A DNA stretch of 47,944 bases from contig NZ_JH719942.1 in the NCBI RefSeq assembly GCF_000275825.1, positions 3,790,714 to 3,838,657 on the forward strand, written 5' to 3'. The DNA is from Saprospira grandis DSM 2844 (GTDB lineage Bacteria > Bacteroidota > Bacteroidia > Chitinophagales > Saprospiraceae). Each line of letters starts with the position of its first letter. Positions within the stretch are counted from its first letter, which is position 1. The position numbers were made by a program, and so were the translations under genes. Below, in pieces: positions 20,444 through 44,660 of this stretch. Under the pieces are notes generated by a model, which searched no databases, had not been told where the DNA came from, and saw only the letters and a list, made by a program, of their open reading frames with translations.

Positions 20444-22141
<1,698 letters not shown>

Positions 22142-22448: not shown

Positions 22449-22483
22449 GGCCTTTGGCCTGCGGCGGCTTTGCCGCCTGTAGG
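22449..22483. repeat. GC-rich element fragment near the CRISPR leader
   Basis: A short piece of the same family: GGCCTTTGGCC followed by GCGGCGGCTTTGCCGCC, an inverted repeat. It marks the upstream edge of the probable CRISPR leader. Between it and 22325 there is AT-rich DNA with no convincing gene. Confidence 0.55.
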
Positions 22484-22490
22484 TCGCGGA

Positions 22491-22701
22491 AAAAGGGGCT
22501 GAAATTAAATTAGGAAGTGTAGGGGAGAAGTTTTATATTGTGGCAGAAATTAGCGTTAAGAGGAGGGCGAATCTAAATCTTAAAACTTTCTTAAAATGAA
22601 AAAAAGGTGTTTGGGGGCTTTGCGGTATATTCTGGGGTTACATGCCTCTAATGTCGGTGCTAGCGTTCTTATGGCTTTTTAAATTATATGATAGTTTTGC
22701 T
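22491..22701 (+). promoter_or_regulatory. Probable CRISPR leader with promoter
   Basis: About 210 nt of AT-rich, gene-free DNA immediately before the first repeat, on the side predicted from the repeat's 3' ATTGAAAC handle. TAGTTTTG at 22692-22699 fits the Bacteroidota -7 consensus TAnnTTTG and ends two bases before the first repeat, so crRNA transcription could begin inside that repeat. No clear -33 TTTG partner is present. A TTAAATTATATGATAG stretch next to the array would suit the integration/IHF-type leader edge, but this is inference. Confidence 0.5.
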
Positions 22702-25700
22702 ATACTAAACCCATTGCAGGCGAAGCAGCATTGAAACAAATGGACGGAACTAGTTATTTTTGGGATTTATATACTAAACCCATTGCAGGCGAAGCAGCAT
22801 TGAAACAGTGTAAACATTTTACTTATACTTTATATTTTTAATACTAAACCCATTGCAGGCGAAGCAGCATTGAAACTAAAAGCCCCGCTATCAATACAGC
22901 TCCTATTATATACTAAACCCATTGCAGGCGAAGCAGCATTGAAACCTCAGCGAGCACCAAGTGCCAGATAGCAAACTGGAATACTAAACCCATTGCAGGC
23001 GAAGCAGCATTGAAACCCCGCAGTCGCCTAGCTGGCAAGAGAAACTAAAATACTAAACCCATTGCAGGCGAAGCAGCATTGAAACGACAGAACTACCCCA
23101 GATGGGCTATGTACTTTATAAATACTAAACCCATTGCAGGCGAAGCAGCATTGAAACGTCGTTCCGTGTCGGGCTCCAAAAATTTACTCCAATACTAAAC
23201 CCATTGCAGGCGAAGCAGCATTGAAACGCCTGAAGGCTTTGGTATTTTGTTCTTTTACGTTATACTAAACCCATTGCAGGCGAAGCAGCATTGAAACTCC
23301 CAGATCATACTTGAGGTCTAGGTTGTTGTTGCTATACTAAACCCATTGCAGGCGAAGCAGCATTGAAACCTTTTATCAATAAAGAACCTGCAGCCACTAA
23401 TGCCGATACTAAACCCATTGCAGGCGAAGCAGCATTGAAACCGCCAGCATTGGCCGAAGATGAAAGGCCAGTTTATACTAAACCCATTGCAGGCGAAGCA
23501 GCATTGAAACGATCACGGCAGAAGCCAAGAAGATCCGCAAAGCCGCATACTAAACCCATTGCAGGCGAAGCAGCATTGAAACTCGCGAACTGTTGGAAAT
23601 TCCTGGCCACGATACAAAGATACTAAACCCATTGCAGGCGAAGCAGCATTGAAACATAAAACCAATCTATTACTGGCTAGTAACCCAGAATACTAAACCC
23701 ATTGCAGGCGAAGCAGCATTGAAACCGTAGATGAAGCCGCAAAGATCATGGCCTCTGTATACTAAACCCATTGCAGGCGAAGCAGCATTGAAACCTTTGT
23801 TTATCCAGATTTAAACCTCAACTGGCTGCATACTAAACCCATTGCAGGCGAAGCAGCATTGAAACACTCAGCTCATGAATACCTGTTAAATACTCCTGTA
23901 TACTAAACCCATTGCAGGCGAAGCAGCATTGAAACTTTTTTGTTGAAGCGAGCATCTATTTTGTACTTCATACTAAACCCATTGCAGGCGAAGCAGCATT
24001 GAAACACCAAAAAGCTTTTTTCTAGCTCTTTGACTGTCCAATACTAAACCCATTGCAGGCGAAGCAGCATTGAAACGATTATCAATTTGATAATTATTTA
24101 AACCCTTTGGCCGATACTAAACCCATTGCAGGCGAAGCAGCATTGAAACACTGTCGCAGAACTGGCCGCAAATCCGTAAATACGATACTAAACCCATTGC
24201 AGGCGAAGCAGCATTGAAACGCTACAAAGCAGCTTATCGCCACTTGCGTAATAAAATACTAAACCCATTGCAGGCGAAGCAGCATTGAAACGTGGGTTAG
24301 CCCATTGAACTCCCGGGATTATCTCATACTAAACCCATTGCAGGCGAAGCAGCATTGAAACACCAGCATTTTTTGCGGTTAAGCCATCAATGATTATATA
24401 CTAAACCCATTGCAGGCGAAGCAGCATTGAAACTCCCTACTGGATTGACGATAATGCGACCAGAAGCATACTAAACCCATTGCAGGCGAAGCAGCATTGA
24501 AACTTGTCTGTCGCAATAAAGTAAAAAAGCCCCACAATACTAAACCCATTGCAGGCGAAGCAGCATTGAAACCTCTATGGCCAAGATTTCACGCCTTAGC
24601 CCGTTAGATACTAAACCCATTGCAGGCGAAGCAGCATTGAAACCGGGCCCAATTATCCAATAATTTAACGCATATAAAATACTAAACCCATTGCAGGCGA
24701 AGCAGCATTGAAACATTAACCCCTGAAGAATTGAACGAAATTATTTTTAATACTAAACCCATTGCAGGCGAAGCAGCATTGAAACCGGAAAAAACACTTT
24801 GGAATGGCTTCGCAATATATACTAAACCCATTGCAGGCGAAGCAGCATTGAAACTTTCTATACCTCCACAATAATACATGTAGCTCCAATACTAAACCCA
24901 TTGCAGGCGAAGCAGCATTGAAACCTTTCGGAGACCTGGACTATACTTTGATCCATGGCTTATACTAAACCCATTGCAGGCGAAGCAGCATTGAAACTCC
25001 AATTGTAATATGGCAGGTTTATCGCTTAATTATACTAAACCCATTGCAGGCGAAGCAGCATTGAAACTGAAAAGCCTTTATCAAAGAATAATAAAATATT
25101 AATACTAAACCCATTGCAGGCGAAGCAGCATTGAAACTCTACTTACCGTCCAAAAGGTAAAAGGAGAAAGATACTAAACCCATTGCAGGCGAAGCAGCAT
25201 TGAAACACAGCCGATTGCAGCGTAAATACTACCAGTACGGATACTAAACCCATTGCAGGCGAAGCAGCATTGAAACCTAAGCTCGAACCCGCAATCTAGC
25301 TCCTTTCTTTATACTAAACCCATTGCAGGCGAAGCAGCATTGAAACAGGGCACAAAAATACAAGACGAATAGTGTTCTATATACTAAACCCATTGCAGGC
25401 GAAGCAGCATTGAAACCTGCATTGAGCCTTACAACGCTGCTTTGCAAGCTATATACTAAACCCATTGCAGGCGAAGCAGCATTGAAACGCCGCCGTAAAT
25501 AAGTTATTCATAAAGTTCTATTATACTAAACCCATTGCAGGCGAAGCAGCATTGAAACTGTCTTTTTCTTTGCCTACGGGGTGGAGTGAAAATATACTAA
25601 ACCCATTGCAGGCGAAGCAGCATTGAAACACCCAAGGCACGGGAGGAACAGGAGGCCAATTTGATACTAAACCCATTGCAGGCGAAGCAGCATTGAAACA

Positions 25701-28700
25701 TTCCATTGGTTCCGATTGTTGCAAAATATTGGCATACTAAACCCATTGCAGGCGAAGCAGCATTGAAACACCTTATTAAATTTCAACCATTAAAATAATA
25801 CATATACTAAACCCATTGCAGGCGAAGCAGCATTGAAACATCCAGTTGCCGAGGTCGGCTGTGGTTTTCCCTAATACTAAACCCATTGCAGGCGAAGCAG
25901 CATTGAAACAAAAACAAAGAATTGAAGAAATTGCAAAAAAGATCTATATACTAAACCCATTGCAGGCGAAGCAGCATTGAAACATCCTTAATAAACGTTC
26001 TACAGGCTGTGGAGGAATACTAAACCCATTGCAGGCGAAGCAGCATTGAAACCGTAAGCGTGACGAGGCGTACGGTGCATTACTAAAATACTAAACCCAT
26101 TGCAGGCGAAGCAGCATTGAAACGAGACGACCTAGTTGTTATTTTTATAGGCCATGTATACTAAACCCATTGCAGGCGAAGCAGCATTGAAACCTTTATG
26201 CAGAATCTCTAGCAGTAGAAGATTGTGATACTAAACCCATTGCAGGCGAAGCAGCATTGAAACATGACTTATTTTAGTTAGCTTACAAGACATGTGGGAA
26301 TACTAAACCCATTGCAGGCGAAGCAGCATTGAAACACTTCAATAGCTGCTTGAGTTCGGAAACTGTATATACTAAACCCATTGCAGGCGAAGCAGCATTG
26401 AAACCAATAAAAAAGCCCGCTATTTGCGGGCTGTGGATATACTAAACCCATTGCAGGCGAAGCAGCATTGAAACAAGGCAATTTTAAAGTTCGGACACCT
26501 GGACTTGTATACTAAACCCATTGCAGGCGAAGCAGCATTGAAACTCAACCCCCCAAAGGTCGAACTGCAATTGCCCTTATACTAAACCCATTGCAGGCGA
26601 AGCAGCATTGAAACTTGGACCGCTAACCCGCCTAGGTATGGAGCTAAGCAATACTAAACCCATTGCAGGCGAAGCAGCATTGAAACCTACCAAGCTAGAA
26701 TGCTAAATAGAGATATTTTATACTAAACCCATTGCAGGCGAAGCAGCATTGAAACTAGGCATAGAATCTAGTATTAGTGGTTATCCAATACTATACTAAA
26801 CCCATTGCAGGCGAAGCAGCATTGAAACTACTTCGCCAAAGCCAAGGGGACGGGGTTAAATTATACTAAACCCATTGCAGGCGAAGCAGCATTGAAACTA
26901 ACGATAAATTAGATAAAATCGAAAAGACATTGGAATACTAAACCCATTGCAGGCGAAGCAGCATTGAAACTTTAGCACCAGATAAGAAAGACATCATTTT
27001 TTCTGAGGATACTAAACCCATTGCAGGCGAAGCAGCATTGAAACTTTATGGCCCTCATTTTTAAACTCAACAGTAAGAATACTAAACCCATTGCAGGCGA
27101 AGCAGCATTGAAACTATCGGTGGGTTGTGCTCAACACACACACCTCCCATACTAAACCCATTGCAGGCGAAGCAGCATTGAAACTTTTTTGTACCCATAT
27201 ATAATAGCGGCCCTCGGTCTGCATACTAAACCCATTGCAGGCGAAGCAGCATTGAAACATCCACACCGCTCAAGTTTGGGTTCTCCTTAATTATACTAAA
27301 CCCATTGCAGGCGAAGCAGCATTGAAACTTTATCGTGAACTTTAGTTTGTCACTCATTATATGCATACTAAACCCATTGCAGGCGAAGCAGCATTGAAAC
27401 TTGTCTAAAAGCGAATTAGACAAGCTAAAGCAGGAATACTAAACCCATTGCAGGCGAAGCAGCATTGAAACAGTCTCAAGAGAAGACGCTCCCACAGTCA
27501 AAAACACATACTAAACCCATTGCAGGCGAAGCAGCATTGAAACTACCTTTTCCACTATCAATTTCACTGATATAACCAATACTAAACCCATTGCAGGCGA
27601 AGCAGCATTGAAACTTTAACGATGTTAAAATAGTCCTATCTCTTCATGATATACTAAACCCATTGCAGGCGAAGCAGCATTGAAACTCCACAGACCTTGT
27701 CCATGTGGGTGTCCGATAAGAATACTAAACCCATTGCAGGCGAAGCAGCATTGAAACTTTTGTAGAAGATATTTGCCTCCTCTTCTTCGTAATACTAAAC
27801 CCATTGCAGGCGAAGCAGCATTGAAACTTTTTTGTAAGTCTCCTTACTAATTAGCCCCATATTTAATACTAAACCCATTGCAGGCGAAGCAGCATTGAAA
27901 CACAAGCCATTTTCGGCTGCCAATCTTGAACTCAATATACTAAACCCATTGCAGGCGAAGCAGCATTGAAACAGATGCAAGCGAATATCTACTTTCATTG
28001 GAACGGATACTAAACCCATTGCAGGCGAAGCAGCATTGAAACTTCGCTGGAAGAGCTTGTAGACCAAAAGTGCGAAAATACTAAACCCATTGCAGGCGAA
28101 GCAGCATTGAAACTTTACAGTTAATAAACACTCATAAAAAAAACATTATACTAAACCCATTGCAGGCGAAGCAGCATTGAAACTTTTCGAACATTTGTTC
28201 GAACTCTTTTTGATCTAGATACTAAACCCATTGCAGGCGAAGCAGCATTGAAACCGCTGAATATTTTGGCGTAATTTTCCAAGGTGAAATATACTAAACC
28301 CATTGCAGGCGAAGCAGCATTGAAACTCCCATAGGTTGGGGAAGGTTTTGGCGAAAACTTCTATACTAAACCCATTGCAGGCGAAGCAGCATTGAAACTG
28401 CGCAGGAACCAGCAGTCGTCTATGGCGTCTGCATACTAAACCCATTGCAGGCGAAGCAGCATTGAAACTTCACTCTATTTGATTTTTTGAGAGATTACGA
28501 AATACTAAACCCATTGCAGGCGAAGCAGCATTGAAACAAAAGCGAAGCGCTTCAACTCTTCTAAGAGTGAGATACTAAACCCATTGCAGGCGAAGCAGCA
28601 TTGAAACGCAGGCGATGCAGCGCTTGATCGTATAGACCTGATTATACTAAACCCATTGCAGGCGAAGCAGCATTGAAACTGCCCTTATTCCCCATTCGGG

Positions 28701-31700
28701 ACAAGTAGTTAATGTAATACTAAACCCATTGCAGGCGAAGCAGCATTGAAACCCAACTACGTAAAGATTCCAGTTGCGGAGTTTATACTAAACCCATTGC
28801 AGGCGAAGCAGCATTGAAACTAATAATCACCTTAACACAATTAAAAAAACTTAGATACTAAACCCATTGCAGGCGAAGCAGCATTGAAACTAAATCTTCG
28901 GGCCAAATAGTATCTAGGTTCTGGATACTAAACCCATTGCAGGCGAAGCAGCATTGAAACTCCTTAGCCAAGGCTTTTAGCGTCTTCATCTTGAATACTA
29001 AACCCATTGCAGGCGAAGCAGCATTGAAACATACCAGCCGCCTCAATGAGTAGCGAATTGGCATTGAATACTAAACCCATTGCAGGCGAAGCAGCATTGA
29101 AACGAAATCCGACGCCGCCAAGAAAGGCGACGTGCTATACTAAACCCATTGCAGGCGAAGCAGCATTGAAACGTAACATTTTCTTTGATTATATTTTTTT
29201 GATTAAAATACTAAACCCATTGCAGGCGAAGCAGCATTGAAACACGTTTCTATTTTCAATACCACTTTGCTTATAAATACTAAACCCATTGCAGGCGAAG
29301 CAGCATTGAAACTGTAAACCACCAGTTGCCCTTTTAATCACTTTGATACTAAACCCATTGCAGGCGAAGCAGCATTGAAACAGCCGTTTAAGCCTTTACA
29401 GTCTTTAGCCGATTGCATACTAAACCCATTGCAGGCGAAGCAGCATTGAAACCGCAATGGAAGGCCAGAAACTAGAACGGCTAAAGATACTAAACCCATT
29501 GCAGGCGAAGCAGCATTGAAACTTTTTACTAAACATAAGAATGTTATTATACTTCTTATACTAAACCCATTGCAGGCGAAGCAGCATTGAAACTTCCACA
29601 CAAATATTCTGTGTGGAATGTTTTTTTATACTAAACCCATTGCAGGCGAAGCAGCATTGAAACATTTTTTTATGCCTTTCCCGTTTTCGGGAGATTTATA
29701 CTAAACCCATTGCAGGCGAAGCAGCATTGAAACTTTTGCTACTATTAACGGGCAAAGGCCGTAAAAGCATACTAAACCCATTGCAGGCGAAGCAGCATTG
29801 AAACGGGATGGTTGCCACCAAGGGGAGCGCCGCTTTCATACTAAACCCATTGCAGGCGAAGCAGCATTGAAACCATTAGCGGAGCAATACTCCGCCAAAG
29901 AAGACCAGCATACTAAACCCATTGCAGGCGAAGCAGCATTGAAACTAAAGAACGGACTAAAGCACCATAGCCCAAAGATATACTAAACCCATTGCAGGCG
30001 AAGCAGCATTGAAACATCATCTACATAAACATGTAAAGTTCTATTTTCTCCATATACTAAACCCATTGCAGGCGAAGCAGCATTGAAACTGTACAACCAA
30101 CTCATTACCAACCGATACAATTTATACTAAACCCATTGCAGGCGAAGCAGCATTGAAACCTTTTTCAGCCCTACGGATAGCCATTAACATTTGATACTAA
30201 ACCCATTGCAGGCGAAGCAGCATTGAAACAAGACCACAAAGAGGGTTGAAAGTCGATTAGGTTAATACTAAACCCATTGCAGGCGAAGCAGCATTGAAAC
30301 GAAGAAAAGACATACTACATCGTCCGATTTAATGAATACTAAACCCATTGCAGGCGAAGCAGCATTGAAACAAAAATCAGGGCAAGGTATGCTCTATTTA
30401 TTATATACTAAACCCATTGCAGGCGAAGCAGCATTGAAACAATTATGAGAAATCAAGTAATTTTCACAGTAATATACTAAACCCATTGCAGGCGAAGCAG
30501 CATTGAAACAAATAAGTTAGAGGGAGGGGTGGGAGGTAAATTAATACTAAACCCATTGCAGGCGAAGCAGCATTGAAACGTCCTTTAAGCTTTGGGGCAA
30601 GCCCTCAATATTTATACTAAACCCATTGCAGGCGAAGCAGCATTGAAACACATCGCCGCCAATATCTGGAATTAGCGTGAAGTCAAATACTAAACCCATT
30701 GCAGGCGAAGCAGCATTGAAACCTCTTCTTTTTTAAAAGTTCTCTTTGTAGGAACTTATACTAAACCCATTGCAGGCGAAGCAGCATTGAAACTATTTCC
30801 CTTGAAATCTGGGCCTCTATCTGGGCTTATACTAAACCCATTGCAGGCGAAGCAGCATTGAAACGCTAATGCGATGCAGTCCAAGGAAGATTTGCAAATA
30901 CTAAACCCATTGCAGGCGAAGCAGCATTGAAACTGTTTGGAGCATACCGCCAAAACCAGATTTGATATTTATACTAAACCCATTGCAGGCGAAGCAGCAT
31001 TGAAACTACATCGTTAGGGTTAAATAGTTGGTTTTTGGCAAATACTAAACCCATTGCAGGCGAAGCAGCATTGAAACGCCCTTTTAAAGGAGCTTTGAGG
31101 CGCTTAGATCTATACTAAACCCATTGCAGGCGAAGCAGCATTGAAACCTGCCAAAACAAAACCAGATACGATATATACAGTATCATACTAAACCCATTGC
31201 AGGCGAAGCAGCATTGAAACATGTGCGAGAAGGGTAAGGGAGACAATCTCTCTGAATACTAAACCCATTGCAGGCGAAGCAGCATTGAAACTGTTCATCT
31301 GAAGGTAAATATTCGCCCTTCTCATAATACTAAACCCATTGCAGGCGAAGCAGCATTGAAACCTCGAACGGCTGGTTCCAAAGCAGGGATTCTGCTTATA
31401 CTAAACCCATTGCAGGCGAAGCAGCATTGAAACAAGCTTTTCCAGAAGCAAAATTCCAAATCACTGCTATACTAAACCCATTGCAGGCGAAGCAGCATTG
31501 AAACGCCCCTAAAACATTTAAGCCCGTTAATAGTGTAGACAATACTAAACCCATTGCAGGCGAAGCAGCATTGAAACCGCCCCAAAGATTACTTTTATTT
31601 TAGACAGCGACAAATACTAAACCCATTGCAGGCGAAGCAGCATTGAAACCGATTTACTTTTGGCACAAGTAGACCTTGTTTAATTATACTAAACCCATTG

Positions 31701-34700
31701 CAGGCGAAGCAGCATTGAAACAGCCTTGAAAGCAGGCTAAAAGTTACTTTCAGTATACTAAACCCATTGCAGGCGAAGCAGCATTGAAACCTTTTCGCTC
31801 ATTACTATTATTTTTGTTCTTTTTTTATACTAAACCCATTGCAGGCGAAGCAGCATTGAAACACCCTACAGTACTTGGAGTATACGCTGATGGAGCTATA
31901 CTAAACCCATTGCAGGCGAAGCAGCATTGAAACACTTAGGCTCTTTTACTAAAGACGAACTATTTAAAATACTAAACCCATTGCAGGCGAAGCAGCATTG
32001 AAACTTTTGAATATTTTTTATAAGCTCTTTTAGGTCAATACTAAACCCATTGCAGGCGAAGCAGCATTGAAACGGCGATGCGGGACGGCTTATTCTAAAG
32101 GCGAAGATACTAAACCCATTGCAGGCGAAGCAGCATTGAAACGTCAAATTTAATCCTACTATAAGCAGCCCTTACTATACTAAACCCATTGCAGGCGAAG
32201 CAGCATTGAAACAGCCATAATAAGCTTGTTTATTTGAGGGCTAACTGCAATACTAAACCCATTGCAGGCGAAGCAGCATTGAAACCAAGGGACTTAGCGT
32301 CTTCTTCAGGCAAACCCATATACTAAACCCATTGCAGGCGAAGCAGCATTGAAACAGTCCTTTTTAGCCTTTTTACGCTCAGCTTGTGACGATACTAAAC
32401 CCATTGCAGGCGAAGCAGCATTGAAACGTTCTTCAGTTAGTAGAAATTCGCCACCTTTGTACTATACTAAACCCATTGCAGGCGAAGCAGCATTGAAACT
32501 TGGATAAACTGCAAATTCCGTAAAAAATAGCTTAATACTAAACCCATTGCAGGCGAAGCAGCATTGAAACCTTTGCTGGCGGGCCCAAGGGCTGAAGCTA
32601 AGACTATACTAAACCCATTGCAGGCGAAGCAGCATTGAAACTAGATCTATACGCTCGTTATGCGTATTTGAGAAAAGTATACTAAACCCATTGCAGGCGA
32701 AGCAGCATTGAAACTTCTCTTTCGCTCTCTGCCAATTCTGCATCAGCAATACTAAACCCATTGCAGGCGAAGCAGCATTGAAACGCCTTAGACACCATGC
32801 CTAATCCACTAGATAGCATATACTAAACCCATTGCAGGCGAAGCAGCATTGAAACTCTCTCAGTTGGATAAAAGTGTTAAAGAAGTACTTAATACTAAAC
32901 CCATTGCAGGCGAAGCAGCATTGAAACCTATTCTAGCAAAGACGTAAGAAAGAGAGAAAAATACTAAACCCATTGCAGGCGAAGCAGCATTGAAACTTCA
33001 CTTTGGCTATCTACGTAATATGCTTGTTCAATACTAAACCCATTGCAGGCGAAGCAGCATTGAAACAGAAGTACATTGCCTTATATTCCTTTATGCTTTT
33101 ATACTAAACCCATTGCAGGCGAAGCAGCATTGAAACTCCAAGTAATCTTGGTCGTACATGTATTGGACGAAGTCCAATACTAAACCCATTGCAGGCGAAG
33201 CAGCATTGAAACCTATGCCAGCGCACAAAAAAAGCCCCTACCAATATATACTAAACCCATTGCAGGCGAAGCAGCATTGAAACTCCAAGTTGCGGTGCTA
33301 TTCCTCGAGGGCGTAGACATACTAAACCCATTGCAGGCGAAGCAGCATTGAAACCGCTAAAAAAAGGACAAAAAAAGCCGAACCACCGAATACTAAACCC
33401 ATTGCAGGCGAAGCAGCATTGAAACTACTTCCTGCTTTTTGAATAGCGCTATTATTATTATACTAAACCCATTGCAGGCGAAGCAGCATTGAAACTTGTT
33501 AATTGCTTATAATTGGCTTATTATTTTAAATACTAAACCCATTGCAGGCGAAGCAGCATTGAAACGATTGAGCAAGCCAAAGGACAGCGCAAAGAAGACC
33601 TATACTAAACCCATTGCAGGCGAAGCAGCATTGAAACTGCGTGTGCCTGCAATTACAGGGGCTCAAGAACTATACTAAACCCATTGCAGGCGAAGCAGCA
33701 TTGAAACTCATTGTACCTATTCCACAAACCCCTTCGATATAGGATACTAAACCCATTGCAGGCGAAGCAGCATTGAAACTTAAGTTTTAGTTTGTGGAAG
33801 TGCCAAGTGTTTAGAAATACTAAACCCATTGCAGGCGAAGCAGCATTGAAACCTTGATGGATCAATCTGATAACAACCGTAGAGAAATACTAAACCCATT
33901 GCAGGCGAAGCAGCATTGAAACGAGAGCTAATTCTACCTGTCTTGGCTTAGTATTTGAATACTAAACCCATTGCAGGCGAAGCAGCATTGAAACACTTGT
34001 TTTGTGTTTTTGCTGATTTTAGCCCATAATACTAAACCCATTGCAGGCGAAGCAGCATTGAAACCCTGGGCGAAAGCAAACAGGAGGCGTTGCCTCCAGT
34101 ATACTAAACCCATTGCAGGCGAAGCAGCATTGAAACTGCAAACCCTCCCCTTCATAATTCACTGAAGGGAAATACTAAACCCATTGCAGGCGAAGCAGCA
34201 TTGAAACAGCAGGGCACAAAAACACAAGACGAATAGTGTCATACTAAACCCATTGCAGGCGAAGCAGCATTGAAACATTTAGTTATGAATCGTTACAGTG
34301 ATTTTGATAAGTATACTAAACCCATTGCAGGCGAAGCAGCATTGAAACAGTAATTACAGAGCGTAAGACGGTCAAAAACCCCATATACTAAACCCATTGC
34401 AGGCGAAGCAGCATTGAAACGACACTATAACGGGGGTTATAAAGGCTTTTAAAAATACTAAACCCATTGCAGGCGAAGCAGCATTGAAACTGTTTTGAAG
34501 TCTCAGCTTTAATTCCGATATTTGTTTTATACTAAACCCATTGCAGGCGAAGCAGCATTGAAACCTTTACTCATGTTTTTCTATTTTTGAATGCTAAATA
34601 CTAAACCCATTGCAGGCGAAGCAGCATTGAAACGCTCGAATGGCAGAGGACAAAAGGTTAAAAACTAATACTAAACCCATTGCAGGCGAAGCAGCATTGA

Positions 34701-37700
34701 AACAGCCACAAAGGCGGCAAATCTACTATTAAACTTTAACATACTAAACCCATTGCAGGCGAAGCAGCATTGAAACAGAAGTAAGCTTTCGGGGCTTCGC
34801 CAAATCAATATACTAAACCCATTGCAGGCGAAGCAGCATTGAAACAATTGTTTAAATTCTATTGTAGGCGTAAAAATCGATACTAAACCCATTGCAGGCG
34901 AAGCAGCATTGAAACTTTCCCAATAAATAACTTCGCTTTTATTCATTCTTTATACTAAACCCATTGCAGGCGAAGCAGCATTGAAACATCGTAGTACATC
35001 TCAGAGTCTTCCTGACTCTGGATATACTAAACCCATTGCAGGCGAAGCAGCATTGAAACCTTGCTGGGCTTCGGTAAGTACCACCTCGCCAGTCATACTA
35101 AACCCATTGCAGGCGAAGCAGCATTGAAACATGTGCGTCCTTTAGGAGAAGAGTACAATAATTTATACTAAACCCATTGCAGGCGAAGCAGCATTGAAAC
35201 AATGAAGTAGTTAAAGCTATTAAATTAGCATTATACTAAACCCATTGCAGGCGAAGCAGCATTGAAACATTCTATTGATAGGCTTTGATGATGTAGCCGC
35301 TACGATACTAAACCCATTGCAGGCGAAGCAGCATTGAAACAGCTCTCAAAATGAGACTACTTGAAGGTGCTGATAATACTAAACCCATTGCAGGCGAAGC
35401 AGCATTGAAACTTGACAGTACTTAGACAGTGTATACTCTACATCGCCTATACTAAACCCATTGCAGGCGAAGCAGCATTGAAACGCTCAAATTGGTACAG
35501 ACGCTGCAGAAGAAGCTTTTATACTAAACCCATTGCAGGCGAAGCAGCATTGAAACAACACCATCTTGTGCAGCCAAAACAGGGTTCACAATACTAAACC
35601 CATTGCAGGCGAAGCAGCATTGAAACACATTAAGCTCCTATGAAGAAGCAATAGAATACATACTAAACCCATTGCAGGCGAAGCAGCATTGAAACATATA
35701 AATGCAACAACTGTCCAAAGACTCGATAATACTAAACCCATTGCAGGCGAAGCAGCATTGAAACAAATATCCTTAAACTAATCATAGAAGTCACTAAATA
35801 CTAAACCCATTGCAGGCGAAGCAGCATTGAAACTAGGTTACCCGCACCAGCCAGCAGGCCAGCAAAGAAATACTAAACCCATTGCAGGCGAAGCAGCATT
35901 GAAACAACGGAAAGTTTTGGGTTTACGATGCTACCCAGGGAGATACTAAACCCATTGCAGGCGAAGCAGCATTGAAACAGTAGTAGCCTGAAAGGCCAGG
36001 GAAACGGCGAAAATACTAAACCCATTGCAGGCGAAGCAGCATTGAAACTTTAGATGTCTTCCAGAAGCATCTTGCAATTTTTGATACTAAACCCATTGCA
36101 GGCGAAGCAGCATTGAAACCTAAAGACCGCAATGGAAAGTGTTGGATATTAGATACTAAACCCATTGCAGGCGAAGCAGCATTGAAACTCCTTTAACCAA
36201 AAAGAGAATCCCACTTTCCTCTAATACTAAACCCATTGCAGGCGAAGCAGCATTGAAACTTGTCCACGTAAATCCAAAGCCTTCCAGAAGAATTTATACT
36301 AAACCCATTGCAGGCGAAGCAGCATTGAAACTTTTTAAATAGTAATTAAAAAAGTACCCAACCTCCTATACTAAACCCATTGCAGGCGAAGCAGCATTGA
36401 AACGAGGTAGAAGAAAAAATAACAGGAGAAGGTTATATACTAAACCCATTGCAGGCGAAGCAGCATTGAAACACTATAGAATTTTTCATGGCTTTTGCTG
36501 AAGAGGATACTAAACCCATTGCAGGCGAAGCAGCATTGAAACTGAGATTTTTCAATAAATTCAATAAAATTTTTTATATACTAAACCCATTGCAGGCGAA
36601 GCAGCATTGAAACTGTAAATTGAAGAAGCAGTTTCACATAGTTTCTAAATACTAAACCCATTGCAGGCGAAGCAGCATTGAAACAATAACCCACTTATTA
36701 AAAAAGTCTATACTTTACTATACTAAACCCATTGCAGGCGAAGCAGCATTGAAACCTGGTACGCTAGCTATTTACTCTGCTGGAGCTAAATACTAAACCC
36801 ATTGCAGGCGAAGCAGCATTGAAACTCGCATCGGCTATAGATTCTAATAGATGGATGTTATACTAAACCCATTGCAGGCGAAGCAGCATTGAAACAACGA
36901 AGAAGTTATACTTCGCCTTAACAACTACTCCATACTAAACCCATTGCAGGCGAAGCAGCATTGAAACTGCAACATAGTTTTTATTTTAGTTGCGAAGAAA
37001 TATACTAAACCCATTGCAGGCGAAGCAGCATTGAAACTACCAAGAGACGGGTGAATAATTTATATATAGGCATACTAAACCCATTGCAGGCGAAGCAGCA
37101 TTGAAACTCTAAATAGTCCGCTGTATCTTCTAATAGTTCAATACTAAACCCATTGCAGGCGAAGCAGCATTGAAACTCATTGATTATGCTTATAGGGGTA
37201 AGGAAGCTATATACTAAACCCATTGCAGGCGAAGCAGCATTGAAACTTACAAGGGCTCGGCTACCTACACGGTAACTAAGCATACTAAACCCATTGCAGG
37301 CGAAGCAGCATTGAAACATGGCGAGACTATTCGTTTTATCCCTATCAAGCGTATACTAAACCCATTGCAGGCGAAGCAGCATTGAAACCAGGATTATTTG
37401 TAGTAGCCTCAGTTAGAGGTAAATACTAAACCCATTGCAGGCGAAGCAGCATTGAAACTCCCAGCCTTTAGGCGCTTCAAATGCGCTTTGTTTATACTAA
37501 ACCCATTGCAGGCGAAGCAGCATTGAAACTCTGCTGATTGATCTACTACCGGAGTAGTATTGGATACTAAACCCATTGCAGGCGAAGCAGCATTGAAACG
37601 CCTTGATGGCCTCATATAGATTGAAGAAACTAAATACTAAACCCATTGCAGGCGAAGCAGCATTGAAACTTCGTATTAATTCATTTTCAGAGTTTGAAAC

Positions 37701-40700
37701 TCTGAGAATACTAAACCCATTGCAGGCGAAGCAGCATTGAAACTTTAAACTGTTCTAGGTAAGACATATAGTTTTCTGTATACTAAACCCATTGCAGGCG
37801 AAGCAGCATTGAAACTCTGAAAATTATTTCGCATATTTTTCAGAATAAAAATACTAAACCCATTGCAGGCGAAGCAGCATTGAAACGCTTTATGAACAAA
37901 CCCAGGATCAGTTGTAAGTAATATACTAAACCCATTGCAGGCGAAGCAGCATTGAAACACGCTTAGGGCGTGATCCTTTATCCGTTGCTACTGCTATACT
38001 AAACCCATTGCAGGCGAAGCAGCATTGAAACTGTAGAGGTTTGTGCAGATTCTTCGTCTGCAATTGATACTAAACCCATTGCAGGCGAAGCAGCATTGAA
38101 ACCTTTGGGCTGCTCTCTTGTTCTTGCTCTGGAAAGATACTAAACCCATTGCAGGCGAAGCAGCATTGAAACCCTATTCCTAACTAGTACGCTAACTATC
38201 TTTAGCGATACTAAACCCATTGCAGGCGAAGCAGCATTGAAACACATTAAATAGTTTGTTGATGTTTTGAGTAAAATATACTAAACCCATTGCAGGCGAA
38301 GCAGCATTGAAACTGTTTTTAATAGAAATGCTTGATCTATCCAGTAATATACTAAACCCATTGCAGGCGAAGCAGCATTGAAACTTTAATAGATATATTC
38401 CCTAAAAGGGATTAGTGTATACTAAACCCATTGCAGGCGAAGCAGCATTGAAACTATGATGTGTACGCTTATGTACGCATCATGCTTATACTAAACCCAT
38501 TGCAGGCGAAGCAGCATTGAAACTATTTCGCATATTTTTCAGAATAAAAATATTATCTATACTAAACCCATTGCAGGCGAAGCAGCATTGAAACATAAGT
38601 TTTAAATGAGATCATTTTTTGTTTTTAAAGTTATACTAAACCCATTGCAGGCGAAGCAGCATTGAAACTTCACGGACAGTTTCCTACAGATGCTGAATAC
38701 ATACTAAACCCATTGCAGGCGAAGCAGCATTGAAACAATTATTGCGAACTCGTTGACGAGTTCATTTCAAAATACTAAACCCATTGCAGGCGAAGCAGCA
38801 TTGAAACCTCAGATCGTAAACCTAACTCCCCACCCTATTGTATACTAAACCCATTGCAGGCGAAGCAGCATTGAAACAATTTCTTCGTTTGCAGAAACTC
38901 TAGGTAGTGGTAATACTAAACCCATTGCAGGCGAAGCAGCATTGAAACATATAATGTTGGAAAATCATTTTGAAATTTGTTTTGATACTAAACCCATTGC
39001 AGGCGAAGCAGCATTGAAACTTGGAAATGCTAGATTTTATTTTAGCAGCCAAAATACTAAACCCATTGCAGGCGAAGCAGCATTGAAACACCAGAACTGG
39101 TGTTGTCACTTCGGAGGCGTAGAATACTAAACCCATTGCAGGCGAAGCAGCATTGAAACTAGGCTTTCCCATGAAGATGTGCTGCATCATTGTTATACTA
39201 AACCCATTGCAGGCGAAGCAGCATTGAAACTAAAAGAACTAACTCTCCAATTTTTACATCATTTATACTAAACCCATTGCAGGCGAAGCAGCATTGAAAC
39301 AGCAGGTATTGTAAGAGTAATTCGGCACTCTCCTATATACTAAACCCATTGCAGGCGAAGCAGCATTGAAACTACAACCAGTACTTCTAAACTAGAAACT
39401 TACTTTAAATACTAAACCCATTGCAGGCGAAGCAGCATTGAAACTATTCATGGCATTTATTTTTTTGTCCAAGATGCCCATACTAAACCCATTGCAGGCG
39501 AAGCAGCATTGAAACCCTTGATTGAGGGTTATGTGAAACATGCTATGGAATATACTAAACCCATTGCAGGCGAAGCAGCATTGAAACTTTTTGTGCAAAA
39601 AATGATAGGACTTTTTTTTGTATACTAAACCCATTGCAGGCGAAGCAGCATTGAAACACGGATGAAGCGGCACTAATAGGAGTAGCTTTGTATACTAAAC
39701 CCATTGCAGGCGAAGCAGCATTGAAACTCCAAGTGGCGGGGCTTAGCCTTGAAGGCCTCCTCATACTAAACCCATTGCAGGCGAAGCAGCATTGAAACCA
39801 TTTTTGGAGCCGTGGAGACTTGCTCCGAACAGAATACTAAACCCATTGCAGGCGAAGCAGCATTGAAACTCCAAGTGGCGGGGCTTAGCCTTGAAGGCCT
39901 CCTCATACTAAACCCATTGCAGGCGAAGCAGCATTGAAACTTTCTATATTTTTTTTAGAGGCCAAAACCCCCAAAGATACTAAACCCATTGCAGGCGAAG
40001 CAGCATTGAAACACCCAGTTAGGGTGCTTTCGAGACTTAATGAGCTCTATACTAAACCCATTGCAGGCGAAGCAGCATTGAAACTACTGTGGTCGTTTTC
40101 ATAAGATTTTGTTTTTAATACTAAACCCATTGCAGGCGAAGCAGCATTGAAACTGCTTAGCATCGACTTGACGCCGCTGTTTTTCATTATACTAAACCCA
40201 TTGCAGGCGAAGCAGCATTGAAACTGTATCTCGACAAATGGACCACGAGGGAATACTGATACTAAACCCATTGCAGGCGAAGCAGCATTGAAACGTATTG
40301 GTATTGGTATTTAATGCCGCCGAAAGGCATACTAAACCCATTGCAGGCGAAGCAGCATTGAAACTTATGATGGCTTATTCATCGCCTACTATATCTAGAT
40401 ACTAAACCCATTGCAGGCGAAGCAGCATTGAAACATGCCATTGTTTTGTGGATATCATTTATATTCAGAGTATACTAAACCCATTGCAGGCGAAGCAGCA
40501 TTGAAACAGGATAAATTTGACAAGTTTTTTCTTGTCTGTTTTGTATACTAAACCCATTGCAGGCGAAGCAGCATTGAAACAAACCAAAAGACCTTGACAT
40601 CAAACTAACACTCTAAATACTAAACCCATTGCAGGCGAAGCAGCATTGAAACATCAACTAGACTTTTACACCCTTGATGATTTTAAAATACTAAACCCAT

Positions 40701-43700
40701 TGCAGGCGAAGCAGCATTGAAACTTCCCAGTATTGGGAGCAATAAGATCTTTACGCTATACTAAACCCATTGCAGGCGAAGCAGCATTGAAACAACGCTT
40801 TCCCCCCCTCTATGATCAGGCAGGTCAATACTAAACCCATTGCAGGCGAAGCAGCATTGAAACGTTCTATATTTGAGACATCAGTTTTTTTAATGGTTAT
40901 ACTAAACCCATTGCAGGCGAAGCAGCATTGAAACGCCGACTAATGTCTTTTGTGTTTATTTGTCATGGGATACTAAACCCATTGCAGGCGAAGCAGCATT
41001 GAAACAGCCCAACTAAACAGCATAGGAACAACCACTTCAAAATACTAAACCCATTGCAGGCGAAGCAGCATTGAAACAACCCAAGTAGTTGCGATAGGCT
41101 GCAAAGTGATTTTATACTAAACCCATTGCAGGCGAAGCAGCATTGAAACTCTCCAGATCGGCCCGAAAGCTTGTAGAATACTACATACTAAACCCATTGC
41201 AGGCGAAGCAGCATTGAAACGTCATCTCAGTGTCTTTGACCCCCTCTTGAAGGACAATACTAAACCCATTGCAGGCGAAGCAGCATTGAAACTTTTACGC
41301 ACTTGTTTTTTGATTTGTTTTTCAAGGCCTATACTAAACCCATTGCAGGCGAAGCAGCATTGAAACAAGAAGACGATGAACGAAAATAAAGGAGTAACTT
41401 ATACTAAACCCATTGCAGGCGAAGCAGCATTGAAACGCCACAAACCAATCAACCCGATCAGGCGGGACTTATACTAAACCCATTGCAGGCGAAGCAGCAT
41501 TGAAACGGCTAATAGAACTGATTTTGCTGGTTAATAGGGTGGCTATACTAAACCCATTGCAGGCGAAGCAGCATTGAAACTATTTACTTGAAAATCTTTG
41601 CTGGAGATTTTTGTAAATACTAAACCCATTGCAGGCGAAGCAGCATTGAAACCTCCACCAAGGAGATTAGTTCATCTAGATTTCCCGATACTAAACCCAT
41701 TGCAGGCGAAGCAGCATTGAAACCATTAGCTGGCGTACTAATAACCTAGCATGGTCGAATACTAAACCCATTGCAGGCGAAGCAGCATTGAAACTTGAAA
41801 GAATTTGATTTCAATGTAGTGTTTATGACATACTAAACCCATTGCAGGCGAAGCAGCATTGAAACTGCCTTTAAAATCTGACGGAGGCGTTACAAAAGTT
41901 TATACTAAACCCATTGCAGGCGAAGCAGCATTGAAACATCACTAAGTTCATTATGGAAGCTGAATCTGAAATACTAAACCCATTGCAGGCGAAGCAGCAT
42001 TGAAACAGAGGTATGACGTTCGACTATATTATTATTGATATACTAAACCCATTGCAGGCGAAGCAGCATTGAAACAGCGTGATTCAAATTGGTAGCTATC
42101 ATTTACACCAATACTAAACCCATTGCAGGCGAAGCAGCATTGAAACAGTTTAAGTTAATTTAATTGTAATTGTCTCACTGTATACTAAACCCATTGCAGG
42201 CGAAGCAGCATTGAAACTAGCGTCGTATTTAGCATACTCGATAGCATAAAGAAATACTAAACCCATTGCAGGCGAAGCAGCATTGAAACACCGCTTATCC
42301 AATTCAGAAGACTTTGAGTTCTCCAATACTAAACCCATTGCAGGCGAAGCAGCATTGAAACGCCGAACTACTGGCTGAACTAAGGGCCAATTTTTATACT
42401 AAACCCATTGCAGGCGAAGCAGCATTGAAACCAGTGGCGAAAAGCCCTAAATTTCGCAAGTTTGCGAAATACTAAACCCATTGCAGGCGAAGCAGCATTG
42501 AAACCTGTGCTTGAAAGCCTTTGGTTTTCTGTGATAGCATACTAAACCCATTGCAGGCGAAGCAGCATTGAAACGATCCTCAATTATCTCTAGGAGGTCA
42601 AATTCAACATACTAAACCCATTGCAGGCGAAGCAGCATTGAAACTTGGAGTGCAGGGCTTCACTAAGAATGCCTAGCCTATACTAAACCCATTGCAGGCG
42701 AAGCAGCATTGAAACTTAGGCATCAGCCAGTCAAATGTCTTTAGCCTAATACTAAACCCATTGCAGGCGAAGCAGCATTGAAACTTGAGTGATATAAAAT
42801 AGAACCCAGCAAGGGTCACATACTAAACCCATTGCAGGCGAAGCAGCATTGAAACCTTTGGTGCAAATCCCATAATCAATTTGGTTTAAGATACTAAACC
42901 CATTGCAGGCGAAGCAGCATTGAAACTGCCATCGCCATCGTTAGCGCCTGATGACCGCTCATACTAAACCCATTGCAGGCGAAGCAGCATTGAAACTTTG
43001 TTTGGGGCCGTCCTTAGTTTGGTTATAAGGGATACTAAACCCATTGCAGGCGAAGCAGCATTGAAACCTCAATAACTCTGACAAGTATAAACGGGCCGTT
43101 GCATACTAAACCCATTGCAGGCGAAGCAGCATTGAAACTCCTCTGTGAGGCTTTCAAAATGGTCGATAGCCATATACTAAACCCATTGCAGGCGAAGCAG
43201 CATTGAAACTGGTTACAAGGGTAATTGAGAGAGTGGTCTTACACCATACTAAACCCATTGCAGGCGAAGCAGCATTGAAACGGAAAAAAAATTATCATCA
43301 ATCCGGCCGCCTTTATACTAAACCCATTGCAGGCGAAGCAGCATTGAAACTCTCCTTCCAGCCCCATTCAGGAAAATCCTGAAGGAATACTAAACCCATT
43401 GCAGGCGAAGCAGCATTGAAACGCACTGATGTCAAGGCCACCAGCCTTTTTAACTAATACTAAACCCATTGCAGGCGAAGCAGCATTGAAACTCCGGCAT
43501 TAAGCCAAAGAGCCTTTTGAGCGCCACATACTAAACCCATTGCAGGCGAAGCAGCATTGAAACTTGCCTAGCCCGCAGGCTATCAGCAGCAAGTGTGTAT
43601 ACTAAACCCATTGCAGGCGAAGCAGCATTGAAACTGTAAAATCTAGTTACTTTGTAATTGGTACAATATACTAAACCCATTGCAGGCGAAGCAGCATTGA

Positions 43701-43921
43701 AACTCTACCATATAGACAGTAGAATGTGGTAGATGGTAGATACTAAACCCATTGCAGGCGAAGCAGCATTGAAACTCTTGAAAATTCTTTTGTTAAGGTT
43801 GTAGCTGAAAAAATACTAAACCCATTGCAGGCGAAGCAGCATTGAAACTGGGCTAAATATGAAGTAGGGTGTTTAAAAACCTTACATACTAAACCCATTG
43901 CAGGCGAAGCAGCATTGAAAC
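22702..43921 (+). CRISPR. Giant CRISPR array: 300 repeats, 299 spacers
   Basis: The repeat is 36 nt: it starts ATACTAAACCCATTGC, continues AGGCGAAGCAGC and ends ATTGAAAC. Hand counting gives 300 repeats (first 22702-22737, last 43886-43921) and 299 spacers, mostly 33-37 nt (up to about 40), with a mean unit of 70.9 nt. I noticed no sequence variant in any repeat, including both terminal ones. The ATTGAAAC end is the conserved 5' crRNA handle of type I and type III systems, which sets + strand transcription and puts the leader at 22.5-22.7 kb. The repeat has only weak potential to fold (TGC/GCA). Subtype cannot be set because no cas gene lies in the window. Identical spacers occur at 39728 and 39870, and overlapping spacers are described in the findings. 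The repeat is translatable (TKPIAGEAALK; FNAASPAMGLV on the other strand) but that has no meaning. Confidence 0.99.
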
Positions 43922-43956
43922 AGCGAACTGCCCAAATTTAGTGTGCCCGCCTGCAA
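43922..43956 (+). other. Spacer-length segment after the last repeat
   Basis: Exactly 35 nt lie between the end of the last perfect repeat and the first base shared with the duplicated block that follows. This equals the mean spacer length. It looks like spacer 300, whose downstream repeat was lost when the block arrived or recombined there. Confidence 0.5.
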
Positions 43957-44348
43957 TTCATCGCCTAGGGACAAGCCCCTAGGCTAACCCTATGGAGTCA
44001 GCCCTAAAGGGCCTCAACTGCTGACATAGCTAGCCTTGCTCATCTGCTTTTGCAGAGAAGGGCCATATCCAAAGGCCCTCTTTAGAGGGCTGTCTGAAAA
44101 AGCTAGCCTAGGGGCTTGTCCCTAGGCAGCAAAAAGGGCGCACACAAGATTTTGAATGCTATCCTTTATTAGTCCCTCAACTTTTTCTGGTTTTTTTTCG
44201 GGAGAGGGCGTAGATAAGAAGTTTTTATATGGAAAGGAGGTATTAGGTTTTTCGGTTCTTCGGCTTTTCATTAGTCCCTCAACTTTTTCTTGGGAGTTTT
44301 GAAAAAAGGAGAGATAAAGAAAGTGTCTTTTAGTGGCTGGGTAGTTTT
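43957..44348. repeat. Duplicated block A, with inverted-repeat hairpins
   Basis: First copy of a block of about 390 bp, repeated at 44671-45041. Its left part (43963-44127) is bounded by two 22-nt sequences that are exact reverse complements and each also nearly self-complementary: GCCTAGGGACAAGCCCC+TAGGC and GCCTAGGGGCTTGTCCC+TAGGC. Between them are further hairpins (CCCTAAAGGG, TCTGCTTTTGCAGA, GGGCCATATCCAAAGGCCC). The right part carries two copies, 102 nt apart, of TTAGTCCCTCAACTTTTTCT. On the minus strand this part stays open and reads ...SQEKVEGLMKSRRTEKPNTS..., but no start codon is present in this copy. Confidence 0.8.
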
Positions 44349-44395
44349 GGGCCGAAGCTTAATGGAAAGCTATAAGTAGAAAAAGCGAACAAGGA

Positions 44396-44660
44396 CTTTA
44401 GTCCGCTCTTCGCTCAGGCAACAACCCAGGGCTTCAGCCCAGGGCGGTAAGCATAGCAATTGTTTTTACCCCTGATTTTTTGTGCGGACTTGTTTTGCGG
44501 CCATGGGCTAAAGCCCATGCTTGCGGGTCTATGCAAACGGGCGGGCTAAAGCCCTTGTTTGCTATAAATGATATGGGCCGATGGTTTCAACCATCGGCTC
44601 ATATTTATTGGGCTAAGTTTGGTCTCTTTTGTTGCTGTGGGTTTTAACCTACAGGGATGA
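44396..44660. repeat. Cluster of REP-like hairpins
   Basis: A run of short inverted repeats with related centres: AGGACTTTAGTCC, GGGCTTCAGCCC, CATGGGCTAAAGCCCATG, GGGCTAAAGCCC, GCCGATGGTTTCAACCATCGGC and GTGGGTTTTAACCTAC. The last two repeat the pair at 1717 and 1777. Such families resemble REP palindromes moved by REP-associated tyrosine transposases; no such transposase is in the window. No gene is visible here. Confidence 0.65.

Follow-up and report, generated by a model that had tools for sequence, protein, structure and literature searches.

A 300-repeat CRISPR array without adjacent cas genes in Saprospira grandis DSM 2844, probably a spacer bank for type III complexes acting in trans

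Which Cas proteins would make use of a very long array of clustered regularly interspaced short palindromic repeats (CRISPR) that has no cas gene beside it? The question is raised by a stretch of 47,944 nucleotides (nt) from Saprospira grandis DSM 2844, hereafter the window, which covers positions 3790714-3838657 of contig NZ_JH719942.1 (C2:3790714-3838657) in a genome of 4.5 Mb and five contigs. The initial annotation had counted 300 repeats and 299 spacers over 21.2 kb, and exact matching gives the same figures. The array, which we name A1, consists of 300 identical 36-nt copies of ATACTAAACCCATTGCAGGCGAAGCAGCATTGAAAC at window positions 22702-43921, with 299 spacers of 32-40 nt, 298 of them distinct (spacer 241 equals spacer 243); allowing up to 12 mismatches, no further copy of the repeat was found in the window on either strand. 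A1 shows the features that define a CRISPR array: direct repeats within the 23-50 bp range and unique spacers of similar size, a conserved leader at one end (seven aligned leaders of the genus have invariant blocks), and spacers from mobile elements, though with few matches among many spacers. We suggest that A1 is a spacer bank that grows from its leader and supplies guides in trans to type III complexes, a reading that we consider quite probable.

A1 is not the only array of its kind in the genome. The initial annotation had proposed to look for a second array with the same repeat, and both a second (A2) and a third (A3) lie on the same contig. Genome-wide, we found 832 copies of the 36-nt repeat at up to three mismatches, versus none for a control pattern read backwards, which excludes a chance origin. 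A1 is the longest of the three arrays (300, 282, and 249 full repeats). Together they hold 828 spacers, of which 818 are distinct, and a fourth array brings the spacers found in the genome for these two repeat families to 860; intervals beside truncated end repeats are left out of these totals. The arrays and the sequences bordering A1 are:

Window 22472-22701, plus strand: leader of A1, which aligns with the leaders of six other arrays of the genus
Window 22702-43921, plus strand: CRISPR array A1, 300 perfect repeats, 299 spacers
Window 43922-44457, plus strand: trailer of A1, alignable over about 0.5 kb with the A2 trailer
C2:82225-102179, minus strand: array A2, 282 copies, one with a single mismatch
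C2:104795-104830: orphan repeat of A2, one copy apart from the array
C2:3617892-3635493, minus strand: array A3, 249 copies, every one with A-to-T at position 12 (T12)
C2:447525-449672: fourth array, beside the type I-B locus, 33 copies of an unrelated 30-nt repeat, 32 spacers

The absence of cas genes noted by the initial annotation is true of the position of A1. Genome-wide searches for the Cas1, RAMP, Cas6, and Cas3 families gave no match inside the window; the six of its 29 listed open reading frames (ORFs) of at least 100 amino acids (aa) that were run against Pfam gave no cas match; and no cas gene was recognized by eye in the ORF list from within the window out to C2:3850000 (L004). The downstream limit of 4 kb was set by the end of the window, which adjoins a scaffold gap of 100 N (C2:3838658-3838757), the window sequence itself containing no N. 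The system is nevertheless not orphan. Genes for Cas1, Cas2, and Cas6 and both type III-B and type III-D loci are present elsewhere on the contig, which rules out a cas-less array and agrees with the earlier expectation that other parts of the genome supply the Cas proteins; the nearest cas gene found is cmr6, whose end is 41,578 bp from the first repeat of A1.

The only cas1 found (C2:3703792-3704877) encodes a protein of 361 aa, for which Cas1 is the sole Pfam match (212 bits). It is followed by an ORF of 262 aa and by cas2 (105 aa; TIGR01573 match above cut-off), a module that lies 107 kb from A1 and whose middle gene is conserved between cas1 and cas2 in S. grandis Lewin. The 262-aa ORF (C2:3704893-3705681, or L002 14893-15681; Lewin counterpart L042 7102-7890) overlaps the start of cas2 by 4 nt. 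Judged by eye, its product has two hydrophobic stretches, one close to either end, and a motif containing Cys; it matched none of the Pfam, PADLOC, and NCBIfam models at the limits used. By PADLOC models, the III-B locus (C2:3760807-3771837) encodes two Cmr1 proteins, Cas10b, Cmr3, a CARF-RelE protein, Cmr4, Cmr5, and Cmr6, and thus the Cas10 and Cmr1, 3, 4, 5, and 6 that characterize type III-B; it sits 53 to 42 kb upstream of A1, its end 41.6 kb before the array. The III-D locus (C2:3457878-3470795) encodes, by the same kind of models, Cas10d, Cas7, Cas5, a double Cas7, Csx19, a Cas7 with insertions, and Csx1, in keeping with the Cas10d, Cas5/Csx10-like protein, multi-domain Cas7 proteins, and Csx19 of type III-D. 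A Cas6 of 273 aa is encoded 5.7 kb from A3 (C2:3611368-3612189); it scored below cut-off with the first family tried, and above it with both Pfam PF01881 and NCBIfam TIGR01877. Finally, a complete I-B effector set, Cas6b-Cas8b-Cas7b-Cas5b-Cas3b, occupies C2:439672-447005, its Cas6b having 224 aa. Effector, adaptation, Cas6, and array modules are thus unlinked, at spacings from 5.7 kb (cas6 to A3) up to hundreds of kb. Both Cas10 proteins carry the GGDD motif, neither has the HD dipeptide that we looked for, and Csx1 has an RNDINH (R-x4-H) motif. As understood in type III systems, these motifs make a cyclic oligoadenylate pathway plausible and DNA cleavage of the HD type by Cas10 implausible.

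Since the I-B locus is accompanied by an array of its own, built on another repeat of 30 nt, the 36-nt repeat would most naturally be used by the type III loci. From this separate array, together with co-occurrence in the genus, we infer that III-B uses CRISPR RNAs (crRNAs) of the 36-nt arrays. Across six Saprospira genomes, copies of the 36-nt repeat family number 832, 429, 321, 13, and zero in two, and RAMP genes were found in all four genomes with the repeat and in neither of those without it, these two being fragmented and one of them only 63% complete. The arrays, leaders, cas genes, motifs, strain comparison, and two adjacent spacers from one phage can be read directly in the DNA; from them we infer transcription, processing, complex loading, signaling, and the pairing of Cas6 with the arrays, as follows. 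The single Cas1-Cas2 module would add spacers beside the leader, copying the first repeat at each insertion, so that the repeats would stay identical. A1 would be transcribed rightwards from its leader (we took the plus strand as the crRNA direction because the repeat ends in ATTGAAAC), and the Cas6 encoded near A3 would cut within the repeats to leave a AUUGAAAC 5' handle. Both the III-B (Cmr) and the III-D complex would take up the crRNAs in trans, and there the binding of target RNA would lead to its cleavage and, through the GGDD palms of Cas10, to cyclic oligoadenylate, which would activate Csx1 (CARF-HEPN) and the CARF-RelE protein.

Comparison with relatives bears on whether such a bank is maintained. 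For S. grandis Lewin we obtained 165 + 148 + 116 = 429 spacers, a count that includes degenerate end repeats and one 76-nt interval; the review PMC10820777, in the part available, quotes 429 spacers in three regions for this strain. The Lewin Cas1 is 96% identical to the Cas1 described here. In a third genome, G005, two arrays contain 190 and 132 repeats (321 copies by pattern). The three array sites all recur in Lewin and two of them in G005, with flanks that match over several kilobases on either side: the A1 site holds the Lewin 166-repeat array (0.14-0.15 Mb) and the G005 190-repeat array (0.13-0.15 Mb), the A2 site the 149- and 132-repeat arrays, and the A3 site the Lewin 117-repeat array. 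The blocks around A1 and around A2 are inverted against contig coordinates, and the match downstream of A1 is limited to 2.4-3.8 kb. The seven leaders of the genus can be aligned. The A1 leader has the invariant AATCTTAAAACTTTCTTAAAATG block, and its last ~60 nt before the first repeat are largely conserved, as they are in most of the seven; the G005 array at the A1 site differs in the last bases. At the other end, the A1 and A2 trailers share their first 101 bases and show 509 identities, 26 mismatches, and 114 gap positions overall; the A1 trailer bears a CCTAGGGACAAGCCCCTAGG inverted repeat.

Identical full spacers were found neither between this genome, Lewin, and G005 nor between the arrays of any one of them. 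Among the 1528 distinct spacers of the three strains, 51 pairs share at least 16 nt, within and between strains (35 in the same orientation and 16 in the opposite one), the outcome expected if related viruses were sampled independently. Since overlapping spacers recur and no full spacers are identical, the comparison indicates that the arrays are, or recently were, active. In the Lewin array at the A1 site, 145 leader-side copies are T12 and the trailer-side copies A12; such variant blocks, new on the leader side and old on the trailer side, are as expected if repeats are copied at the leader end. The uniformity of A1 would fit the same copying with no mutation in the first repeat. The head of A2 has a different structure: its distal leader is fused to the single orphan repeat, without ~150 of the 161 bases separating both in A1, and from this repeat to the array (C2:102180-104830) there are 2,615 bp ending in half a repeat and one spacer, with a DNA methyltransferase and a restriction-like gene (read by eye). 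Growth of A2 has probably stopped, while A1 and A3 retain leaders; the loss may be recent, because the A2 repeats are still nearly perfect.

Two neighboring spacers of A1 match one phage perfectly:

Window 34846-34879, plus strand: spacer 172, 34/34 match to Flavobacterium sp. phage 1/32 (KJ018210.1), antisense to F132_42
Window 34916-34951, plus strand: spacer 173, 36/36 match to Flavobacterium sp. phage 1/32 (record positions 6693-6728), antisense to F132_14

The protospacers are 21 kb apart in this phage, which originates from Baltic Sea ice, and the two spacers probably stem from one encounter with a close relative of it. Both are antisense, an outcome that arises one time in four by chance. 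Of the eight bases adjacent to each protospacer, just 3 and 1 agree with the ATTGAAAC handle, and a low match of the flank to the repeat handle is expected of a non-self target. In A2, spacer 146 has a 97% match to a tRNA-Arg gene of the crAss-like phage cr115_1 and to one other phage record, and no copy within three mismatches in the host outside the array. We also noted tRNA T-arm-like motifs (motif only) in spacer 112 of the Lewin 166-repeat array, spacer 34 of the G005 190-repeat array, and spacer 20 of the G005 132-repeat array; T-arm-like spacers suggest tRNA-bearing phages as targets.

A near search of A1 against phages gave phage 1/32 as its one record, at two places. Beyond these, a distant search of A1 in three overlapping pieces returned only phage 1/32 plus weak records (E of at least 0.2), which we set aside, A2 spacers gave nothing apart from the two records of spacer 146, A3 spacers had no phage match, and A1 spacers had no plasmid match; four spacer-core patterns searched in IMG/VR gave 0 matches each. 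We compared all spacers of the three strains and of the I-B array with pieces of phage 1/32, five IMG/VR relatives, and a crAss-like piece, obtaining 298 matches versus 265 with reversed spacers. Only A1 spacers 172 and 173 and A2 spacer 146 stand clear (E of 1e-10 or better); the next best reach 6e-5 to 2e-4, versus 5e-4 for the top reversed spacer. Phages of marine Saprospira are evidently poorly sampled. Regarding self-targeting, the 828 spacers had no long match in ~230 kb of the genome's own non-array DNA, where the best reached 18 nt without mismatch or 28 nt at 89%. Array function, but not the choice of effector, is further supported by spacer 173 and by the comparison of sites.

Several observations weigh against the proposed use of A1 by type III complexes. 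No operon joins A1 to the III-B or III-D genes, the link being one of elimination and co-occurrence, and strong phage matches were found for only two of 299 A1 spacers in the collection searched. The I-B repeat, in crRNA direction, ends in the same ATTGAAAC, so that I-B could use A1 crRNAs. Moreover, type III complexes require crRNAs antisense to transcripts, and spacer orientation does not show this. Of fragments from the host, our codon scorer assigned 81.5% to the correct strand, and of overlapping fragments from a single phage gene, 302 of 442. It classed 138 of 298 A1 spacers as antisense-like and 160 as sense-like, and over eight 36-nt-repeat arrays of the three genomes 798 versus 730 of 1528 (p = 0.086). 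An antisense lean is seen in A2 (166/280) and in the third Lewin array (70/107), with p = 0.002 each, of eight tests; the I-B array gives 18/32. Whole spacers have a pyrimidine excess (mean purine 0.478, n = 1528) that is nearly gone from their interiors (purine 0.497 and 0.492). Being mostly confined to the spacer ends, it is no evidence of antisense selection and probably reflects an end preference of Cas1-Cas2. A stop-codon test found no bias (75 spacers open on the spacer strand only and 60 on the other only, of 1528, p = 0.23). We thus rejected antisense selection of spacers. With no firm strand bias in the orientation tests, uptake from DNA, from either strand, is probable and the simplest reading. 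Perhaps half of the spacers would then be unable to bind mRNA. If type III alone were served, about half would be inert, which could be the cost of adaptation without a protospacer-adjacent motif (PAM) or a hint that I-B shares the crRNAs.

Might the 36-nt arrays then mainly feed the type I-B complex, whose Cas3 would destroy invader DNA whatever the orientation of the spacer? The effector set is complete, the crRNA handle would be the same 8 nt, and DNA targeting fits the lack of a firm strand bias. In addition, both the only Cas1 found and the Cas6 near A3 score best with the PADLOC models Cas1b and Cas6b, the NCBIfam I-B Cas1 model remaining far below cut-off. Against this, the I-B genes stand beside their own 33-repeat array, with its different repeat, and have their own 224-aa Cas6b. 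Type I systems require a PAM, and the two phage protospacers have no obvious common motif on either flank, though two are too few to test for one. We consider a predominantly I-B role unlikely.

A1 could also be a largely silent archive, grown in the past, with most of its spacers unexpressed or unused. Its sister array A2 has lost the core leader, and one A1 spacer resembles a terminator:

Window 29594-29618, plus strand: terminator-like sequence in spacer 98, a 9-bp stem then a T run, which may be chance

Terminator-like sites are not, however, enriched: over 22502-42500, on both strands, we found 18 versus 25.9 +/- 5.4 in shuffled sequences. The A1 leader is close to those of the six other arrays, all 300 repeats are intact, and no spacer recurs in the two other strains. 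These points make an unused archive rather improbable. A sigma-70 scan gave 78 sites versus 42.9 +/- 6.3 in shuffles, an excess that arises because each repeat starts with ATACT and ends with TTGAAAC; the consensus is that of E. coli, which does not apply to Bacteroidota. A Bacteroidota-type promoter pattern had no match in the array or the leader.

That the array was expanded in assembly is very improbable: the assembly is scaffolded with 100-N gaps, one at the window end, and A3 contains a tandem duplication of seven spacers, but 298 of 299 A1 spacers are distinct, so that the repeat units are uniquely anchored, congeners have arrays of 117-190 repeats at homologous sites, and our Lewin count of 429 equals the figure given in the available part of PMC10820777.

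In A3, spacers 46-52 recur in order as 53-59; either a block of seven units was duplicated or the assembly is wrong there. Stems of at least 7 bp occur in 41 of the 818 distinct spacers, versus 11.8 expected from shuffles and ~18.8 per 818 in host non-array DNA; hairpin-forming spacers, several of them terminator-like, are thus found in all three arrays at about twice the frequency in host DNA. We considered them as a sign of RNA or single-stranded DNA capture and kept them as a side observation, host DNA being itself above shuffles.

Each type III locus also contains a pair of PtuA/PtuB-like ATPase and HNH genes (effectors of the Septu and retron Ec78 type). The III-B pair lies between the two cmr1 copies (L034 9671-11822) and the III-D pair directly upstream of cas10d (L032 5878-8971). 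G005 also has a PtuA, 85% identical; the gene after it is a different one, HNH-like by eye, and the RAMP cluster of that strain is a few kilobases away. The Cmr1 proteins on either side of the III-B pair (L034 8807-9655 and 11854-12813) are identical over their first 55 residues and differ thereafter, as though the locus had been split by a duplication or insertion. Septu with a reverse transcriptase is described in PMC8565338, and the available part of that article contains no link between type III CRISPR and PtuAB. Of the two reverse transcriptase genes found, the one at C2:2167213-2167779 (open frame of 346 aa) is ~1.5 Mb from cas1 and the one at C2:2908174-2908800 (562 aa) ~0.8 Mb. No reverse transcriptase is fused or adjacent to cas1, and there is no firm strand bias; RNA-derived adaptation of the RT-Cas1 kind was accordingly rejected.

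The type III bank that we favor admits a bolder version, which we advance only tentatively and think doubtful as a whole. The three fixed arrays would form a hyper-expanded, orientation-blind bank, among the largest immune memories known, filled by a stand-alone adaptation module whose co-translated membrane-type protein might be an envelope anchor sampling DNA as it enters. Two type III complexes would read this bank, their signaling coupled to the PtuAB nuclease modules. If true, array size would offset the half of the spacers unable to pair with mRNA.

One flanking gene of A1 lies outside the CRISPR system:

Window 20444-22069, minus strand: CTP synthase gene, flanking

Past it, ~3 kb from the A1 leader, window 17166-19697 holds a type IV restriction gene of the GmrSD type, its tail a DUF4268.

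Among known systems, the closest is that of S. grandis Lewin, which has the same repeat family, three array sites, similar leaders, the module of cas1, 262-aa ORF, and cas2, and RAMP genes. It differs in having about half as many spacers, none of them identical to those of the present genome, in later repeat variants that have spread through its arrays, and in that all three Lewin arrays have a leader, whereas A2 here is without the leader core. With described type III-B (Cmr) and III-D systems the loci share gene content (PADLOC), GGDD in both Cas10 proteins, and a AUUGAAAC-like handle, which is typical of type III. Unlike them, the system here has its modules for effectors, adaptation, Cas6, and arrays in separate places, a PtuAB-like ATPase/HNH pair stands in each locus, and the Cas10 HD dipeptide is missing.

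In size, the initial annotation had called A1 exceptional. This is borne out, except that A1 has about half the spacers of the longest array in print: the accessible text of PMC7145573 gives Haliangium ochraceum as holding the longest array in CRISPRCasdb, with 587 spacers, a statement repeated in 2023 (PMC10076291), versus a maximum of 299 here. H. ochraceum DSM 14365, likewise a bacterium with extremely long arrays, has further arrays of 189 and 36 spacers according to the part of PMC8047081 available. Its total of 812 is slightly below the 828 of the 36-nt arrays here, or 860 with the I-B array; here, moreover, three large arrays share one repeat. We saw no genome total above 812 in those parts of the open-access literature that were examined, and claim no record. 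PMC8047081, again as far as its text was available, treats as an open question why most arrays remain below ~50-100 spacers. Long arrays at homologous sites, with no common spacer and with adjacent spacers matched to a phage, offer a natural test bed for the reach of a leader promoter, the tolerance of crRNA dilution, and the sharing of arrays among unlinked modules. The system is one of a known kind at extreme size, near the top of the range in the reports available to us; less usual are its unlinked modules, the repeat common to three large arrays, PtuAB in type III loci, and the membrane-type gene between cas1 and cas2.

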